From: Roseburia sp.
GTDB taxonomy: Bacteria; Bacillota; Clostridia; Lachnospirales; Lachnospiraceae
DNA: 10,273 nt
Assembly (NCBI GenBank): GCA_030844625.1
Contig: JAUUNJ010000065.1
Coordinates: forward strand, 1-10,273
Direction: 5' to 3'
How positions within the stretch are numbered: position 1 is the stretch's first letter; each line of letters begins with the position of its first letter. Under the pieces are notes generated by a model that had not been told where the DNA came from, did not search any database, and was given only the letters and a program-made list of their open reading frames with translations. Position numbers and translations under genes: made by a program. This document shows, piece after piece, positions 2,913 to 10,273 of this stretch.

Positions 2913-4304
2913 TTATCCATTCTCTAATGCCTTATCCATAATGTCTAATGCTCTTTCTAATTTTTTCTCTTCCACAGCGGAATAGTTTATTATAAATTTA
3001 TGTCTGAATTCTTCTAAATTATTATAGCAATACTCTGAAACGCTGGATATTTTTATATCATGCTCTCTTAAGGTTTTCACAAATTTCTCATCATCCATTT
3101 TATCCTTTATTCCCAGAATAAAATGAAGTCCGGCATTTTCTTCCTCAATGGTTACCTTGGAATAAATTGGCGACTGTTTAATGGCATTAATTATCCTGTT
3201 CCGATAATCTTTATAATAGTTTCTCATTCGGTTAATGTGTCTCTCGTAATATCCTTTTCTTATAAAATTAGCAAGGGTATATTGCTCAAAACTGGAAACT
3301 GTACTGGAATAAAAACCCAGCCTTTTATTGAATTTTCCCATTAATTTATCAGGCAGAACCATATATGCAATTCGAATGGACGGTGCCAGTGTCTTGGAAA
3401 AAGTATTCATATAAATTACCCTTCTGCCATCAATTCCAGCCATTGCAGGTATAGGTCTTCCCGAAAATCTAAATTCACTGTCATAATCATCTTCTATGAT
3501 ATAGCTTTTATTTTCGGATGCCCAGTTTAACAACTGATGCCTTCTTCCAACAGGCATAACCCGGCCGGTAGGAAAGTGATGAGAAGGCGAAATATGAACC
3601 GCACTCACATTACATCCTTCAAGATCATTGGTATTTAATCCTTCTTTATCAATTCTCAAATGAAGACACTTTACTCCATTGCTCTCATACACTTTCCCAA
3701 TTTTTTTATATCCCGGGTCTTCCACCGCAATCATTTTATTATGTCCCAGCAATTGGACAATAATACTATATAAATATTCAGTTCCTGCACCAACTATAAT
3801 ATTGTCCGGATTCACATCCATTCCACGAAAATGCTGTAAATGATCTGCTATGGCTTCTCTCAATTCTTTTACCCCATTAGGTGCAGGACTGGTAAGGAAT
3901 GAATTTTCCTGATCCAGAAGTGTCTGTCTCATTACTCTGGACCATGTGGCAAAAGGAAAACTATCATACATAATATGATTGGAATTAAAATCCACCAACC
4001 ACTGCTTTTTCTTTTCCTCCGGCTTTTTCCCTGATTTTATTTCAGGCTCTATATACTGCCGATTGACTTTTCCGGCAAAATATCCTTTTTTCTCCTTCGT
4101 ATAAACATAACCTTCCACCACAAGCTGGGCATAAGCGTTTTCCACTGTGATTACACTGATACCATGATTTCTTGCCATTTCCCGTTTAGACGGAAGTTTT
4201 TCCCCTGCCTTTATTTTCCCCCACAGAATATCATCTCTTATACATTTATACAAATATTCATATAATGATATTTTCTCTCTCTTTTCTAAATCATAGGTAA
4301 GCAT
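2913..4304 (-). CDS. pdxR: MocR/PdxR-family regulator (GntR-type HTH plus aminotransferase-like domain)
   Basis: This 463-residue regulator has a winged helix at about residues 10-75 (GEKLPSKREMARNHGIS, TVENAYAQL, EGYVY), a basic linker, and a fold-type I aminotransferase-like domain. That domain carries EDDYDSEFRF (271-280) and the PLP-lysine motif NTFSKTLAPS, with Lys304 as the expected internal aldimine. MocR proteins of this type bind PLP as effector. PdxR members activate B6 genes and repress themselves. Its divergent neighbour is a pyridoxal/pyridoxamine kinase, which supports that role. I chose the ATG at 4304 because AGAGGA lies 4 bases before it and the family N-terminus usually begins near MLTYDL. 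An in-frame GTG at 4319, five codons upstream, is an alternative and has AGGAG at 11 bases inside a hairpin. cca follows 47 bases downstream. The symbol is assigned by context. Confidence 0.88.
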   Translation of the reverse strand: MLTYDLEKREKISLYEYLYKCIRDDILWGKIKAGEKLPSKREMARNHGISVITVENAYAQLVVEGYVYTKEKKGYFAGKVNRQYIEPEIKSGKKPEEKKKQWLVDFNSNHIMYDSFPFATWSRVMRQTLLDQENSFLTSPAPNGVKELREAIADHLQHFRGMDVNPDNIIVGAGTEYLYSIIVQLLGHNKMIAVEDPGYKKIGKVYESNGVKCLHLRIDKEGLNTNDLEGCNVSAVHISPSHHFPTGRVMPVGRRHQLLNWASENKSYIIEDDYDSEFRFSGRPIPAMAGIDGRRVIYMNTFSKTLAPSIRIAYMVLPDKLMGKFNKRLGFYSSTVSSFEQYTLANFIRKGYYERHINRMRNYYKDYRNRIINAIKQSPIYSKVTIEEENAGLHFILGIKDKMDDEKFVKTLREHDIKISSVSEYCYNNLEEFRHKFIINYSAVEEKKLERALDIMDKALENG

Positions 4305-4321
4305 CTTATCCTCTTTCACCC

Positions 4322-4440: not shown

Positions 4441-4511
4441 GGAGGTTATCTGGATTATAATCTCTGATTATTATTTATGCTGCTGACTCTTGCAGCAGAA
4501 TGGAGATAACT
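4441..4511 (+). promoter_or_regulatory. Structured pdxK leader with a second Shine-Dalgarno and short upstream frame
   Basis: GTTATCT (4445-4451) pairs perfectly with AGATAAC (4504-4510), which overlaps the pdxK ribosome binding site GGAG (4502-4505). Inside lies a hairpin TGCTGC/GCAGCA (4478-4483, 4492-4497). A strong unused GGAGG sits at 4441-4445 and a 10-bp palindrome GATTATAATC at 4453-4462. A ten-codon frame MLLTLAAEWR runs 4477-4509 and stops two bases before the pdxK ATG; it has no good ribosome binding site of its own. Translational control is a possibility only. Confidence 0.35.
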
Positions 4512-5345
4512 ATGAAACGTGTTATGAGCATACAGGATATTTCCTGCATCGGAAAATGTTCCCTTACAGCGGCACTGCCAATAATATCTGCTATGGGCGT
4601 GGAAACTTCCATCGTTCCAACTGCCGTTCTTTCCACCCATACCCAGTTTAGCGGTTTTACATTCCGGGATTTAACCGATGATATGGAATCCATTAAGGAG
4701 CACTGGTTAAAAGAAAATTTTCAATTTGATGCAATTTACACAGGATATTTAGGTTCTGAAAGACAGATTGAAATTGTATCCGATTTTTTTAGTGCTTTTG
4801 GTAACAAAAACAACTATATCGTGGTAGACCCTGCCATGGCTGACAACGGAAAAATGTATCCGGGATTTGATTCCCAGTTTGCGTTAAAGATGGCTTCTCT
4901 ATGCAGAAAAGCTGATATTATTCTGCCAAACATTTCAGAGGCTGCATTTATGTTGGGTGTTCCTTATCCCGGAGAAGATGCTTCAGCAGATGAGATAAAA
5001 GAACTGCTTCTGGGTCTGGCAGAACTGGGTTCTAAAAAAGTAGTTATTACGGGAGTTAAATCTGGTAATCATCAATTAGGTTTTATGGGATATGACACAG
5101 AAACAAAAGAGTTTTTCGATTATTATACAGAGCAGATTGCAATAAAATCCCACGGTACGGGAGATGTGTTTGCCAGCACCTTTACCGGAGCACTGGTGAA
5201 TGATTTCTCCATTTTTGATTCTTTAAAAATTGCTGCCGATTTTACCTGTGCATGTATCCGAAACACCTACAATGATCCGGATTCCGTGAATTATGCCGTT
5301 AATTTTGAGGCAGAAATACCATATCTGCTAAAATTAATAAAATAA
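4512..5345 (+). CDS. pdxK: Pyridoxal/pyridoxamine kinase
   Basis: This 277-residue ribokinase-fold enzyme phosphorylates pyridoxal, pyridoxamine or pyridoxine with ATP in the B6 salvage pathway, in the cytoplasm. It starts with the characteristic MKRVMSIQDISCIGKCSLT and has the substrate-loop region LSTHTQFSGF (40-49), GYLGS (78-82), VDPAMADNGKMY (105-116) and LPNISEAAFMLG (138-149). The anion-hole/catalytic motif HGTGD is at 214-218, with Asp218 the expected base. Family members include PdxY and the clostridial pyridoxamine kinases; the preferred vitamer cannot be read from the sequence. I chose the ATG at 4512 because GGAG lies at 4502-4505. An in-frame ATG at 4500 would overlap that site and add four residues. 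The gene is monocistronic, divergent from pdxR, and ends at a strong hairpin shared with metK. Confidence 0.92.
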   Translation: MKRVMSIQDISCIGKCSLTAALPIISAMGVETSIVPTAVLSTHTQFSGFTFRDLTDDMESIKEHWLKENFQFDAIYTGYLGSERQIEIVSDFFSAFGNKNNYIVVDPAMADNGKMYPGFDSQFALKMASLCRKADIILPNISEAAFMLGVPYPGEDASADEIKELLLGLAELGSKKVVITGVKSGNHQLGFMGYDTETKEFFDYYTEQIAIKSHGTGDVFASTFTGALVNDFSIFDSLKIAADFTCACIRNTYNDPDSVNYAVNFEAEIPYLLKLIK

Positions 5346-5521: not shown

Positions 5522-6709
5522 TTATAAATATTCCTTTAGCATATCAGCCTTATCTATTTTTTCCCAAGGCAGGTCAAGATCATTTCTTCCAAAATGTCCG
5601 TAAGCTGCTGTCTGCTTATAAATTGGTCTTCTAAGGTCTAACATCTTGATAATTCCAGCCGGTCTCAAATCAAAGTTTTCACGAATGATTTCCACCAACT
5701 TTTCATCACTTAATTTTCCTGTTCCAAATGTATCCACCATAACTGATGTGGGATAAGCTACACCAATGGCATATGATAACTGAATTTCACACTTTTCCGC
5801 AAGTCCTGCACCAACAATATTCTTTGCAACATATCTTGCTGCATAAGCTGCTGAACGGTCTACCTTTGTACAATCCTTTCCTGAAAAGGCACCGCCGCCG
5901 TGACGGGCATATCCGCCATAGGTATCAACAATAATTTTACGTCCTGTAAGTCCACTGTCTCCATGAGGTCCTCCAATTACAAAACGTCCTGTCGGATTAA
6001 TAAAAAACTTGGTATTTTCATCAACCATATTCTGAGGAAGTACCTCATCAAATACATACTTTTTAATATCCTCATGAATCTGTTCCTGGGTAATATCAGG
6101 ATCATGCTGTGTGGAGAGAACCACTGCATCCAGTCTTGCAGGCTTTCCGTTTTCGTCATACTCTACAGTGACCTGACTTTTTCCGTCCGGTCTAAGATAT
6201 GATAACGTTCCATTCTTTCTGACCTCTGTAAGTTTTCTAGTCAGTTTATGTGCAAGTGAAATAGGATACGGCATCATTTCTTCCGTCTCATTGGTTGCAT
6301 ATCCAAACATCATTCCCTGATCCCCTGCACCAATGGCATCCAGTTCTTCCTCTGTCATTTTATTTTCTTTTGCTTCCAGTGCTCGATCCACACCCATAGC
6401 AATGTCTGCCGACTGCTCATCCAGTGCTGTAATAACGCCACAAGTATCACAATCGAAACCGTATTTGGCTCTGTCATAACCAATTTCTCTGATTGTCTCT
6501 CTGACAACTTTCTGAATATCCACATATCCCTCTGTCGTAATTTCTCCCATTACCAGAACCAGGCCTGTTGTGATGGATGTCTCACAGGCAACACGACTCA
6601 TCGGGTCCTGTCTCATAAGTTCATCTAAAATGGCATCTGAAATCTGATCGCAGATTTTATCAGGATGTCCTTCAGTAACTGATTCGGAAGTAAATAATCT
6701 CTTTTCCAT
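5522..6709 (-). CDS. metK: S-adenosylmethionine synthetase
   Basis: This 395-residue enzyme makes S-adenosylmethionine from methionine and ATP in the cytoplasm, as a homotetramer with two Mg2+ and one K+ per site. All signature regions are intact: [17 protein letters not shown] (10-26) with the ATP-binding His15 and Asp17, the hexapeptide GAGDQG (127-132) in [21 protein letters not shown] (251-259), and the glycine-rich GGGAFSGKD (271-279). Length and order match the bacterial family. The ATG is preceded by AAGGAG at about 7 bases. The gene has a long leader with a SAM-I riboswitch, so SAM should switch off its own synthesis. It ends near the long hairpin shared with convergent pdxK. There is no downstream gene in the same direction within its transcription unit. 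Confidence 0.98.
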
Positions 6710-6870: not shown

Positions 6871-6975
6871 TCCTCTTATTGATCGATTGCTCGCTCAGGC
6901 TGGCACCTTCCTGACTATGTCGGGGTTGCCGTGGCTTCACAGGTCCTTGTACCTCCACCACTCTGAATAAGAGTC
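6871..6975 (-). promoter_or_regulatory. SAM-I (S-box) riboswitch aptamer
   Basis: The P1 helix is CTCTTAT (6967-6973) with ATAAGAG (6873-6879). Between them, on the minus strand, are the conserved S-box elements: GGTGGAGG, GTGAAGCC, ACGGCAACC and GGTGCCAGCCTGAGC. The layout and sequences match the SAM-I class, which binds SAM and terminates transcription of methionine and SAM genes in Firmicutes. Here it controls metK, about 160 bases before the start codon. Confidence 0.95.
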
Positions 6976-7114: not shown

Positions 7115-9106
7115 TTATTTTTTCTCATTGCGAAATTGAACCGGTGTCTTTCCATATTTTTTCTTGAACAGTCTTGTAAAATGTTCAACATTCTGGTATC
7201 CTACTGCCTCAGCAATGGCTTCAACGGTCATATTTCCTCCCTTTAAGAGAGTCCTCGCCTTTTTCATTCTCACGTTTTTTACCAGTTCTCCAAAGGTCTT
7301 TCCCGATTTATCTTTAATATATTTTGACAAATATGGTTTTGAAAGGTGAAATTCTTCTGCCAGTTCATCTAATGTTACCGTCAGATAATTGGTATGAATA
7401 TAATTTAAAATTTCTGTTAATCTTTCATCCTGGCATTTTTTTTCACCTGTGGAAGACACTAACTGATTCACAGCCACAGTCAAAGCATGAATTGATGACT
7501 TGATAATATCTTCATCCAGTCCAACGCCCCAGTACATCTTTCCGTTACATATGATTCCAACATAGGAAACTGCCTTTGAAGACGAACCACGGGATAAGGA
7601 ATGCTCCTCATAAACGGACAACTCATAACTGATATTAAAATACTGTTTAAATGCATTGCTTACTGCATCCAGCCTTCCGTTACCTGTACTCTTAACAATT
7701 CTTGTACCGTCACTCTGCTTTATTGTAACTTCTGCCACAATACCGTGCTTCTGCTGGAAATGAGCCTCCGGAATGCTGAACACACTATTGTCATTTATAT
7801 ATTTATCTTCAAAAATCTGGTAAACCCATGCAGGTGATAATTCTTTATGTTCTTTGTCAGATACATCCTTAACGGAATAACCCACATCTTCTCTCATTTT
7901 TTCCGGAAGTGATAATCCAAAGTTCTGTTTCAAAATGTAACTTACGCCACCCTTACCGGACTGGCTGTTAATTCTGATTACGTCTGAATCATATGTTCTT
8001 CCCACGTCAACCGGATCAATTGGAAGATATGGAACAGTCCATTCATCACTATCGCTGGCTTCTCTGCATGCCATACCTTTTGCAATGGCATCCTGATGAG
8101 AACCCGAGAACGCCGTAAATACCAAATCTCCCGCATATGGCTGACGCGGTCCCACCTGCATTCTTGTCAATCTTTCATATACTTCACAAATCTGAGGCAT
8201 ATTGCTAAAATCAAGTTCCGGATCCACGCCGTGTGAAAACATATTCATAGCCAGTGTAATAACATCTACGTTACCTGTTCTCTCACCATTGCCAAACAAG
8301 GTTCCCTCTATTCTGTCAGCACCTGCCAATACGCTTAACTCTGCCGTAGCCACGCCGCATCCTCTGTCATTGTGCGGATGAACTGAAATGGTAACTGCAT
8401 CACGATATTTTAAGTTTTTATGCATGTATTCCACCTGTGTGGCAAAAACGTGAGGCATTGCATTCTCCACAGTTGCGGGGATGTTGATAATAACCTTGTT
8501 ATCTTTCTCTGGTCTCCACACATCAAGTACTGCATTACATACTTCCAGCGCATAATCCACTTCCGTTCCCGGAAAACTTTCAGGGCTGTACTCAAATGAG
8601 AAATTACCATCAACCTCATTTGCAAGTTTCTGTAATAACTCTGCACCGTCAATTGCAATCTGTTTAATCTCTTCTTTACTCTTTTTAAACACCTGTTCAC
8701 GCTGTGCAACAGATGTGGAGTTATACAGATGAATAACTGCATGCTTAGCACCTTTTACTGCCTCAAAAGTCTTTTTTATTATATGTTCTCTTGCCTGTGT
8801 CAGGACCTGTACGGTAACATCATCCGGAATCATATCCTTTTCAATTAACGCGCGCATAAAATTGTATTCTGTCTCTGAAGCGGCAGGAAAACCTACTTCA
8901 ATCTCCTTAAATCCGATATCTACCAGCATCTGGAAAAATTCTAATTTTTCATCCAGACTCATCGGCTCAATCAACGCCTGATTACCATCCCTTAAGTCTA
9001 CACTGCACCATATTGGTGCTTTATCAATATACTCCTTTTTCACCCAGTCATATGTTGGTGCAGGCGGCATAAAATACTGTCTCTTGTACTTTTTGTGATT
9101 CATCAT
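7115..9106 (-). CDS. leuA: 2-isopropylmalate synthase fused to a C-terminal AraC-type HTH domain
   Basis: This 663-residue protein has a complete LeuA of the longer (Mycobacterium/Corynebacterium-like) type plus an extra DNA-binding domain. LeuA condenses acetyl-CoA with 2-ketoisovalerate, the first committed step to leucine. The catalytic barrel has LRDGNQAL (38-45, metal ligand Asp40), HPHNDRG (243-249, metal-binding His243 and His245), GNGERTGN (272-279, Asn279), and SGSHQDAI with His337. The leucine-binding regulatory domain spans about 440-550 (STGNGRLDAVSNA, YWGVGLDEDI). From about 560 to the end follows a full AraC/XylS double helix-turn-helix: LDELAEEFHLSKPYLSKYIK (579-598) and VEAIAEAVGYQ...HFTRLFKKKYGKTPVQFR. 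Usual LeuA of this type ends near residue 555. The junction contains eight consecutive A bases (7436-7443). AAGGAG precedes the first ATG by about 9-10 bases. A T-box lies upstream. Confidence 0.95.
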   Translation of the reverse strand: MMNHKKYKRQYFMPPAPTYDWVKKEYIDKAPIWCSVDLRDGNQALIEPMSLDEKLEFFQMLVDIGFKEIEVGFPAASETEYNFMRALIEKDMIPDDVTVQVLTQAREHIIKKTFEAVKGAKHAVIHLYNSTSVAQREQVFKKSKEEIKQIAIDGAELLQKLANEVDGNFSFEYSPESFPGTEVDYALEVCNAVLDVWRPEKDNKVIINIPATVENAMPHVFATQVEYMHKNLKYRDAVTISVHPHNDRGCGVATAELSVLAGADRIEGTLFGNGERTGNVDVITLAMNMFSHGVDPELDFSNMPQICEVYERLTRMQVGPRQPYAGDLVFTAFSGSHQDAIAKGMACREASDSDEWTVPYLPIDPVDVGRTYDSDVIRINSQSGKGGVSYILKQNFGLSLPEKMREDVGYSVKDVSDKEHKELSPAWVYQIFEDKYINDNSVFSIPEAHFQQKHGIVAEVTIKQSDGTRIVKSTGNGRLDAVSNAFKQYFNISYELSVYEEHSLSRGSSSKAVSYVGIICNGKMYWGVGLDEDIIKSSIHALTVAVNQLVSSTGEKKCQDERLTEILNYIHTNYLTVTLDELAEEFHLSKPYLSKYIKDKSGKTFGELVKNVRMKKARTLLKGGNMTVEAIAEAVGYQNVEHFTRLFKKKYGKTPVQFRNEKK

Positions 9107-9234: not shown

Positions 9235-9270
9235 AAAAAATCTCTGTACTTCCAACCGGAAGTACAGAGA
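9235..9270 (-). terminator. T-box terminator hairpin upstream of leuA
   Basis: TCTCTGTACTTCC (9241-9253) and GGAAGTACAGAGA (9258-9270) form a perfect 13-bp stem with a 4-base loop. On the minus strand a run of six T's follows, then C and more T's. It lies 20 bases after the T-box sequence and is the OFF structure of the leucine T-box. Confidence 0.92.
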
Positions 9271-9508
9271 CGTAAGTTTGCTTTACCAACGCGGTACCAC
9301 TCTGTTTCATGTAATACATGCTCTCTAAGGATGCTCATGACATCCGCTCCCTGTAACGGTGGAATCCGTCCTGACCTACTCTATTTCGAACAATCATTTC
9401 AGCCGGAAGCTCCAAGGTGAGTTCATTATCTTACTTCTACTGTCTCGCACCCGCCGACAGCTCTCTGAAACCGCTTAATAATTACTATTCCTCTTCAACG
9501 CTTTTATT
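9271..9508 (-). promoter_or_regulatory. T-box leader (leucine specifier CUC) of leuA
   Basis: Stem I begins with GAAGAGGAATAGTAA (9482-9496) and contains the distal AGAGAGCTGTC (9456-9466). The specifier loop GAACTCACC (9416-9424) places CUC, a leucine codon, at 9419-9421. The T-box AGAGTGGTACCGCG (9290-9303) has the UGGU bulge, which pairs with an ACCA tRNA end and so with discriminator A, consistent with tRNA-Leu. Uncharged tRNA-Leu should therefore favour antitermination into leuA. Confidence 0.95.
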
Positions 9509-9532
9509 ATTTTTAGGATGACCTAATATTAA

Positions 9533-9561
9533 CATATGCATATTTCTTTGTGTAGTGACAA
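9533..9561 (-). promoter_or_regulatory. Weak candidate promoter of the T-box/leuA transcript
   Basis: TTGTCA (9556-9561, minus strand) is a fair -35. At 17 bases the -10 is CATATG (9533-9538), and at 19 bases TATGTT (9531-9536). Either would start transcription shortly before stem I of the T-box. The rest of the gap up to the beta-glucuronidase stop (9562-9631) is AT-rich and holds no recognisable gene or strong terminator. Confidence 0.3.
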
Positions 9562-9631
9562 AATTAATCAGTTTTATTGATTTTTTTTAATCTATTTTAA
9601 TGATATTCACAATTAAAAAACAGAAAATGCT

Positions 9632-10273
9632 CTATTCCCTTATACCCATCCACCTCTCTCTCAGCAGATGTGCTGCCATCTTGGGCTGTCGGTTTCTTGT
9701 AAAAATTCCCTTTTTATTTCCATCTACACGGTTAAGACCCTGCTTTGTCTGGAAATCCGCATAAGCCCATGGATGTTCTCCAATCATAAAATCCAGTTCA
9801 TCAAAAGCCTTATGATATTCATTTAAATATGCACACTGGAACTCCTCTGAGAATGCTACCGGCGGCCACTTGTGAAGCCCGGCAATTGTGTCCGCACCGT
9901 ACTCACTCATAATAACCGGCTTGTTGTATTTTTCATGCCAGCGGTTCATTTCGTTTTTAAGCTGCAATCCTATGAGTTCAAGATGACTGTGATCATTGTA
10001 CCATGCATAATATCTGTTGACACAGATTACGTCTACCCACTGGCTTACCTTGTCACCGTCAGGACCTGTTGTATGAACAATTGTGATTGGTCTTGTGGAA
10101 TCCAGCCCACGCATTGTTTCCGTTATTTTTTTGAAATAAGGAACAGCTCCTTCCTCATGAGTGGCAGCCTCATTTGCCACACTCCACATTATAACACAAG
10201 GGTGATTCTTGTCACGTTCGTACATTGCCTTCAACATGTCCATATGGTGATTCAATGTCTCATCATTTACTCT
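9632..10273 (-). CDS. uidA: Beta-glucuronidase (GH2), C-terminal fragment
   Basis: The C-terminal 213 residues of a glycoside hydrolase family 2 enzyme are visible; the rest lies beyond the right edge. Beta-glucuronidases remove glucuronic acid from conjugated drugs, bile compounds, steroids and glycans, and in gut bacteria supply sugar acids for growth. Counting from the window edge, the acid/base Glu is in SVANEA (Glu35), the nucleophile in MSEYGAD (Glu124), and the NKKG motif (186-189) is the carboxylate-recognition signature that separates glucuronidases from galactosidases. The ending GIFTRNRQPKMAAHLLRERW is also family-typical. The visible part contains no signal peptide or extra C-terminal domain. 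The true start is not in the window; the reading frame is open to the edge. No transporter or regulator of a gus operon is visible, and downstream lies the unrelated leuA leader. Confidence 0.93.
   Translation of the reverse strand, partial: RVNDETLNHHMDMLKAMYERDKNHPCVIMWSVANEAATHEEGAVPYFKKITETMRGLDSTRPITIVHTTGPDGDKVSQWVDVICVNRYYAWYNDHSHLELIGLQLKNEMNRWHEKYNKPVIMSEYGADTIAGLHKWPPVAFSEEFQCAYLNEYHKAFDELDFMIGEHPWAYADFQTKQGLNRVDGNKKGIFTRNRQPKMAAHLLRERWMGIRE

Follow-up and report, generated by a model that had tools for sequence, protein, structure and literature searches.

In a 10,273-nt stretch of Roseburia sp. DNA (hereafter the window), a single gene encodes a complete 2-isopropylmalate synthase (IPMS, LeuA) followed in frame by a complete AraC/XylS-type DNA-binding domain, and comparison across its relatives points to a predicted operator, O1, at the gene's own promoter. 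The protein is probably a fused trigger enzyme with intact active and leucine sites, whose AraC-type helix-turn-helix (HTH) domain would bind the predicted O1. The sequence-only reading of this DNA had proposed a trigger enzyme whose HTH reads DNA and had put forward no target. The comparative support for the proposal is strong, as O1 occurs with the HTH and is missing without it, and the predicted target is the leuA gene itself.

LeuA-AraC occurs frequently across a large family of gut bacteria, and the predicted operator makes the model open to gel shift. The gene exists in several natural states, with the HTH fused, apparently slippage-coded, split or lost, and these allow direct study of how an enzyme becomes a regulator.

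Domain architecture and distribution of LeuA-AraC

The gene occupies 7115..9106 on the minus strand. Its open reading frame, matched by both Pfam and NCBIfam, reads from an ATG at 9106 to 7115 and encodes 663 aa with zero internal stops. Every Pfam domain of the protein scores above its curated cut-off, including the three (HMGL-like, LeuA_dimer and HTH_18) for which a profile check had been suggested, and the earlier description of an uninterrupted frame from a complete LeuA into a complete AraC HTH is borne out. The protein belongs to an NCBIfam 2-isopropylmalate synthase subfamily (811.9 bits, cut-off 455). The HMGL-like catalytic TIM barrel spans residues 31-307 (8186..9016, minus; 242.9 bits) and is followed by the IPMS post-catalytic domain (IPMS_D2, residues 327-393; 7928..8128, minus) and the allosteric leucine domain (LeuA_dimer, residues 423-549; 7460..7840, minus; 75.3 bits), in which the GNGRLDA motif is retained.

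The active-site residues picked out from the letters alone (Asp40, His243, His245, Asn279 and His337) are present, and they align with the active-site residues of Mycobacterium tuberculosis LeuA. They show no variation in an alignment of 29 sequences, six of them unfused, and the leucine-site motif GNG..D is retained in the LeuA part of the same alignment. From its sequence, the LeuA part would be enzymatically active.

A short variable linker (residues 550-560; 7427..7459, minus) leads into the AraC/XylS double HTH (residues 561-660; 7127..7426, minus). HTH_18 matches residues 582-660 with 77.4 bits against a cut-off of 33.6, and HTH_AraC matches residues 623-660. In the predicted structure the HTH starts at about residue 561 and forms seven AraC-like helices across residues 561-660 (block pLDDT 79-90), in agreement with the placement of a double HTH at about residues 560-663 in the sequence-only reading. 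The arrangement of the domains in the model is uncertain (pTM 0.54), and the catalytic domain is partly poorly predicted. A structure search with this model returned LeuA and other enzymes of the same fold, and no AraC structure, among the 50 matches listed.

AraC/XylS regulators commonly, if not universally, carry a separate non-enzymatic sensor such as a cupin domain. The sensor part of the window protein is instead a full IPMS, and a complete enzyme and a complete DNA-binding domain share one chain, as in trigger enzymes with fused DNA-binding domains.

HTH_18 and HMGL-like are both present in the best 120 of 7984 scored homologues. Where the records of these 120 are named, they read just '2-isopropylmalate synthase', which conceals the regulator part. 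In a species-level genome collection, 32 of 78 loci have a LeuA frame of 659-665 aa with the HTH inside, and the fused loci of this collection include three from Sporomusa and one from Lachnotalea glycerini. We also ran the suggested search for the architecture across Lachnospiraceae (the family of L067). Among the matches listed, which are in E-value order with fused rows first, a full fused-length match was found in 67 of 270 LeuA-bearing genomes (299 searched); two of the 67 have one stop inside, and one further match is cut by a contig end. In the wider phylum, 45 of 398 genomes have this LeuA at E <= 1e-150, three of these carry the fusion, and a fourth, G018, shows the probable slippage form treated below. 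Recurrence across the homologues, the species-level loci and the family sample rules out an assembly or frameshift artefact as the source of the fusion.

For comparisons between loci, LeuA matches below about 500 residues were excluded (142 loci kept), duplicates were removed (131 left) and three contig-edge rows were dropped. L119, which has an internal LeuA stop at residue 71, contributes to the operator and selection counts but is excluded from the tree. In L030 the HTH is out of frame and no A-run is present; this locus was counted as HTH-bearing and 'split'. In the tree of 127 LeuA sequences, all 79 HTH-bearing rows and 16 HTH-less rows form one 95-row clade (support 89, not starred, with a poorly resolved interior). 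The HTH-less label needs seven changes on this tree, so the simplest reading is one gain of the HTH and several losses. Judged from these distributions, the LeuA-AraC fusion is an old, conserved family, found mainly in Lachnospiraceae and also in Sporomusa. The fused copy is the only close leuA in 17/17 fused genomes checked; three Sporomusa genomes additionally contain relatives at 25-26% identity.

The predicted operator O1 and its co-occurrence with the HTH

The predicted operator, GATTAAAAAAAATCAATAAAACTGATTAATTTTGTCACTAC, lies at 9552..9592 on the minus strand with a matrix score of 53.9, against a shuffle maximum of 4.6; the matrix was trained on 17 sites, this one included. It is the sole match above 5 in the window. 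The element was seen as a near-invariant stretch upstream of the T-box in the window's group, and the same element precedes T-box-less fused genes. It is 41 bp long and consists of the half-site ATTAAA-N4/5-TCA repeated at a spacing of 23 bp. Accepting A or T at the first base, the first half-site has 8 or 9 of 9 matches in 50 of 62 sites, and the second does so in 58 of 62.

This pattern would fit two HTHs reading adjacent major grooves, twice, and a LeuA dimer may bring two HTHs onto the two half-sites of O1. AraC itself has two HTHs per monomer and binds as a dimer to tandem direct repeats next to the -35 box. LeuA-AraC resembles it in having two HTHs per monomer and tandem predicted sites, and differs in carrying an enzyme with a leucine-sensing domain in place of the arabinose sensor. 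A tandem two-box site near the promoter, seen here at the level of sequence only, is as expected of AraC/XylS regulators.

We scanned upstream of leuA at 122 of 128 loci, excluding those with less than 200 nt of upstream sequence. A first scan with the 41-bp matrix from 17 sites, over 600 nt at the 99% shuffle level, found O1 at 56/64 fused, 11/11 split and 1/47 HTH-less genes, the last of these marginal and the 56 including L016, whose match falls on the opposite strand and looks fortuitous. In a strict scan over 1,000 nt, limited to the gene's strand and to scores >15, O1 is present at 66/75 HTH-bearing genes and at 0/47 HTH-less genes; once the 17 matrix-training sites are removed, 49/58 HTH-bearing genes retain it. 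The association between O1 and the HTH has a Fisher p of 5e-25, a value that ignores kinship. The concern over kinship is answered by the HTH-lost genes nested inside the HTH clade, since 15/15 of those tested lack O1.

Nine HTH-bearing genes score <15 for O1: L012-L016, L023, L026, L027 and L145. In L023, L026 and L027, visual inspection shows a site with one base fewer between the half-sites. L012-L016 have retained the HTH but have no standard O1, which counts against the O1 model. These five genes are also the only ones among 78 HTHs to carry P591T. They are close kin, so the substitution and the drift of O1 represent one event. All five carry H642N as well; this change is also present in L025 and L090, both of which have O1, and we count this against the model. 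The recognition-helix residues Y592, S594, K595, E641, F643, R645 and F647 are the same in 78/78 HTHs.

This invariance, the linkage of the operator to the HTH and purifying selection on the HTH in the slippage genus (pN/pS 0.17) make it very improbable that the fusion is a neutral C-terminal extension of what is just an IPMS, a reading in keeping with the apparent repeated loss of the HTH, with LeuA retained, on the tree.

Alternatively, O1 may be bound by another regulator, with the fused HTH acting on a different target or having only a structural role. Such genomes encode other AraC proteins, and sequence alone cannot assign sites to a protein. However, it would need to be lost with the fused HTH each time, and O1 is gone at all 15 tested HTH-lost genes. 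Moreover, O1 is close to chance level elsewhere in the genome, and the recognition helices are nearly invariant, with P591T only where O1 has drifted. We consider this explanation improbable. Binding of the predicted operator by the leuA-AraC protein is, in our estimate, very likely: because O1 is present and lost together with the HTH and is near chance level elsewhere, the enzyme most likely binds its own promoter.

We searched 46 genomes (41 with the HTH and five without) for the core pattern of O1, permitting two mismatches. The pattern matches the leuA promoter in 38 of the 41 HTH-bearing genomes, with some sites 600-800 nt upstream, and has zero matches in the other three (G013, G256 and G328). 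Away from leuA, the 41 genomes hold 14 matches, 13 of them with two mismatches, compared to nine for a reversed control; among the five fusion-less genomes, one has a two-mismatch match. Six of the matches away from leuA were inspected as three pairs, of which two lie inside or at the start of coding genes. An intergenic O1-like site with two mismatches is present in two close species (L286, about 1974-2002, and L287, about 2031-2059). It precedes a gene that by eye is nitroreductase-like and that is a possible second target.

Across 60 leuC/ilvC loci (238 kb; 30 genomes, including some with the slippage or split form), no O1 matrix score was >=3, and the best matches to the 17-base core are two with three mismatches, at L204 and L213. 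No wider leucine regulon was detected in the 46 genomes or at the 60 leuC/ilvC loci. The extra matches away from leuA appear to be near chance level, and no target other than the gene itself was found; as for direct control of pathway genes, the co-occurrence of operator and HTH is seen at the protein's own gene only. HTH-bearing leuA also tends to be separated from other branched-chain genes: among loci with >=3 kb flanks on both sides, an ilv/leu neighbour is present at 1/26 HTH-bearing loci compared to 14/30 HTH-less loci, with neighbour clusters named from one member each. L098, which is HTH-bearing with shorter flanks, has an ilvE-like gene nearby.

Promoter geometry and the proposed leucine control

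An extended -10 box, TGTTAATAT, lies at 9526..9534 (minus), with its hexamer 61 bp from the start of O1. Such a box was found in 47/62 promoters, and its hexamer is at offset 61 in 44 of these 47. With the start placed at the usual 7 nt after the -10 box, transcription in the window would begin near 9519, and O1 covers about -73 to -33 relative to this position. AraC activates araBAD from the corresponding place, which is the usual one for an AraC activator, and O1 may act from there in the same way. The -35 match is weak yet above shuffled sequence (mean 3.30 of 6 compared to 2.65), so activation may or may not be needed.

In the T-box-less group L082-L107, a second operator-like site, O2 (CAANNNANTTGAT), lies about 85-88 bp after the O1 start, directly after the -10 box. 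It has zero mismatches in 14/62 loci compared to 0/310 shuffles, and most of the 62 loci are without a clear O2.

The upstream position of O1 relative to the -10 box, ending near -33 in the usual place of an AraC activator, argues against a plain repressor that sits on O1 (and O2) and blocks its own promoter, whether or not leucine is a co-repressor. The weak -35 box and the scarcity of clear O2 sites point the same way. Such a repressor would suit the O2 of one T-box-less group, which directly follows the -10 box, and PutA and BirA, well-known enzyme-regulators, act as repressors (PMC6978683). We judge it unlikely, and we favor activation rather than repression as the reasonably likely mode of action at O1.

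In the window, a T-box leader follows the promoter (9263..9507, minus; Rfam 130.8 bits, gathering 93). Its specifier is presumably CUC (Leu), within GAA-CUC-ACC, as placed by eye from the T-box consensus. A consensus scan located a terminator-like hairpin and T-run at 9240..9271 (minus) that ends the leader. With a simple pattern, T-boxes were found at 24/64 fused, 0/11 split and 25/47 HTH-less genes; these are lower bounds because the pattern misses at least one Rfam T-box (L047). Rfam found no T-box in 18 pattern-negative loci. Since a leucine-type T-box already supplies leucine control in the window, the HTH there would add a second layer, giving the gene two likely layers of leucine control, one protein-DNA and one tRNA-RNA. 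The leader is a likeness to leu/ilv genes under leucine T-boxes; the T-box is a separate RNA layer and was not found at many HTH-bearing genes.

We hypothesize that when leucine is low, LeuA-AraC on O1 activates its own transcription, and that leucine in the LeuA_dimer domain weakens this activation. Leucine (or a substrate) in the LeuA part would thus alter DNA binding, and transcription of the gene would drop when leucine is plentiful. That the signal is leucine or another LeuA ligand seems fairly likely. In lineages with a T-box, such as that of the window, the HTH and O1 would set initiation and the T-box would govern read-through. In lineages without one, the HTH would be the only leucine-control element found, to which O2 could add repression in one group.

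PutA is a proline dehydrogenase that represses put, BirA is a biotin ligase that represses bio, and both carry fused DNA-binding domains. As in these proteins, one LeuA-AraC polypeptide would be both a metabolic enzyme and a regulator of its own pathway. It differs in that its enzyme is the leucine-committing IPMS and its DNA-binding part a C-terminal AraC double HTH, with no target found beyond its own gene. PMC6978683 describes PutA and BirA as enzymes that also bind DNA and regulate genes of their own pathways. In the open-access full texts searched, we found no description of an IPMS with an AraC domain that controls its own promoter, partly by way of slippage, in line with the earlier remark that no described regulator of this design is known. 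Proteins of the Ada type join an AraC HTH to a DNA-repair methyltransferase, are switched by covalent methylation and control a repair regulon. LeuA-AraC is likewise an AraC HTH fused to an enzyme, but its sensor would be an allosteric amino-acid enzyme. Few fused enzyme-regulators exist, and we know of none in which an AraC domain links an allosteric amino-acid biosynthetic enzyme to its own promoter.

The window contains a second enzyme-derived regulator, of a known kind: a PdxR/MocR-type gene (GntR HTH plus an aminotransferase-like part) at 2913-4319 (minus), adjoined by a divergent pyridoxamine kinase gene at 4500-5345 (plus). Downstream of leuA-AraC, a SAM riboswitch (6873-6973, minus; 70.3 bits) precedes metK (5522-6709, minus), and a metK-cluster gene is near leuA-AraC in 17/65 fused loci. 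The window also holds a CotS-family spore coat protein gene (313-1296, minus), whose score is exactly at the family cut-off, and the C-terminal part of a beta-glucuronidase gene (9632-10255, minus), the remainder of which seems to lie beyond the window.

Probable slippage, split and lost forms of the gene

According to the sequence-only reading, orthologs in close relatives that end near residue 555, with the HTH in a separate frame, would point to an assembly artefact. This arrangement does occur in one genus, that of G018. In 13 of its 20 genomes, LeuA stops at about residue 557-560, immediately past 8 or 9 consecutive A, and the HTH continues in a different frame. G011 (L024) has 10 A and the HTH in frame, and G322 and G336 are fused without an A-run. 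Two further genomes have LeuA with no HTH detected (one of them at a contig end), and two are without this LeuA. G322 and G336 also have a second, unfused leuA at 50% identity besides the fused one, which counts against our model. In the window copy, the linker has no A-run at the joint and the two parts are simply fused.

We compared the A-run in detail in 13 loci, where it is 9 A long in 11 loci, with one locus each at 8 and 10 A. At 9-A loci the HTH is in the -1 frame; at 8-A loci (L039 and L040), a -1 or +2 change would join the frames. Synonymous change in the genus is near saturation (median pS 0.64-0.68), yet the A-run stays pure A, and among the lysine codons of the LeuA parts AAG is commoner in 11/12 and equal in one. 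Read in its own frame, the HTH has a median pN/pS of 0.169 (76 pairs), compared to 0.136 for LeuA (64 pairs). Over the HTH region, the remaining two frames contain 2-7 stops. In the G018 genus, and not in the window, an out-of-frame HTH under purifying selection thus accompanies a conserved run of about nine A, as expected of programmed transcriptional slippage. Eight of the 11 split loci belong to this genus, and each of them has O1.

The conserved A-run and the purifying selection in the shifted frame suggest slippage rather than assembly error, and slippage likely gives both LeuA and LeuA-AraC in this genus. No convincing RNA structure that could act as a frameshift stimulator was found 3′ of the A-run (consensus -0.79 kcal/mol), and transcriptional slippage is therefore favored over ribosomal frameshifting at A-AAA-AAC, a less likely alternative. 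In dnaX and MxiE, the latter an AraC-family regulator, some nine consecutive A or T allow one gene to yield products in two frames through slippage. Unlike in those genes, slippage in the G018 genus would append an AraC domain to an enzyme and would set the ratio of enzyme to enzyme-regulator. Baranov et al. (PMC1088944) treat slippage at runs of 9A/9T and report selection against slippage appearing at run length nine in a large proportion of genomes.

The frame break could instead be a sequencing or assembly error, or the HTH could be a separate protein made from an internal ATG. The named loci belong to metagenome-assembled genomes, all 13 loci have a Met codon six or seven codons past the A-run, and L139, from another lineage, by eye resembles a split gene with its own ribosome site. 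An error would have to leave a run of 8, 9 or 10 A in 13 loci despite the near-saturated synonymous change, in mostly AAG-preferring genes, and to recur in a separate lineage: L145 (G102), beside Lachnotalea in the tree, has its own 8-A run where LeuA joins the HTH, which is again in the -1 frame. As for the internal ATG, inspection of the 13 loci by eye showed no consistent Shine-Dalgarno sequence ahead of the Met codon, and the equivalent residue is Met in 27/78 HTHs, some of them fused in frame. Taken together, we find error or internal initiation rather unlikely.

We lean slightly toward a broader picture in which one gene would yield a plain enzyme and, through slippage at the A-run, an enzyme-transcription factor that reports the end product to its own promoter. 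The lineages would represent different states of this gene: fused in the window, slippage-coded in the G018 genus and separately in L145, split in L139, and with the HTH lost along with the operator elsewhere.

In L139 (G085), LeuA and the HTH are in different frames without an A-run, and by eye the HTH has an ATG of its own, preceded by purine-rich sequence; this is perhaps a true split into two proteins. In L042, which is without a fused HTH, and in L122, an AraC-type HTH gene adjoins leuA on its upstream side (L123 is the same gene as L042).
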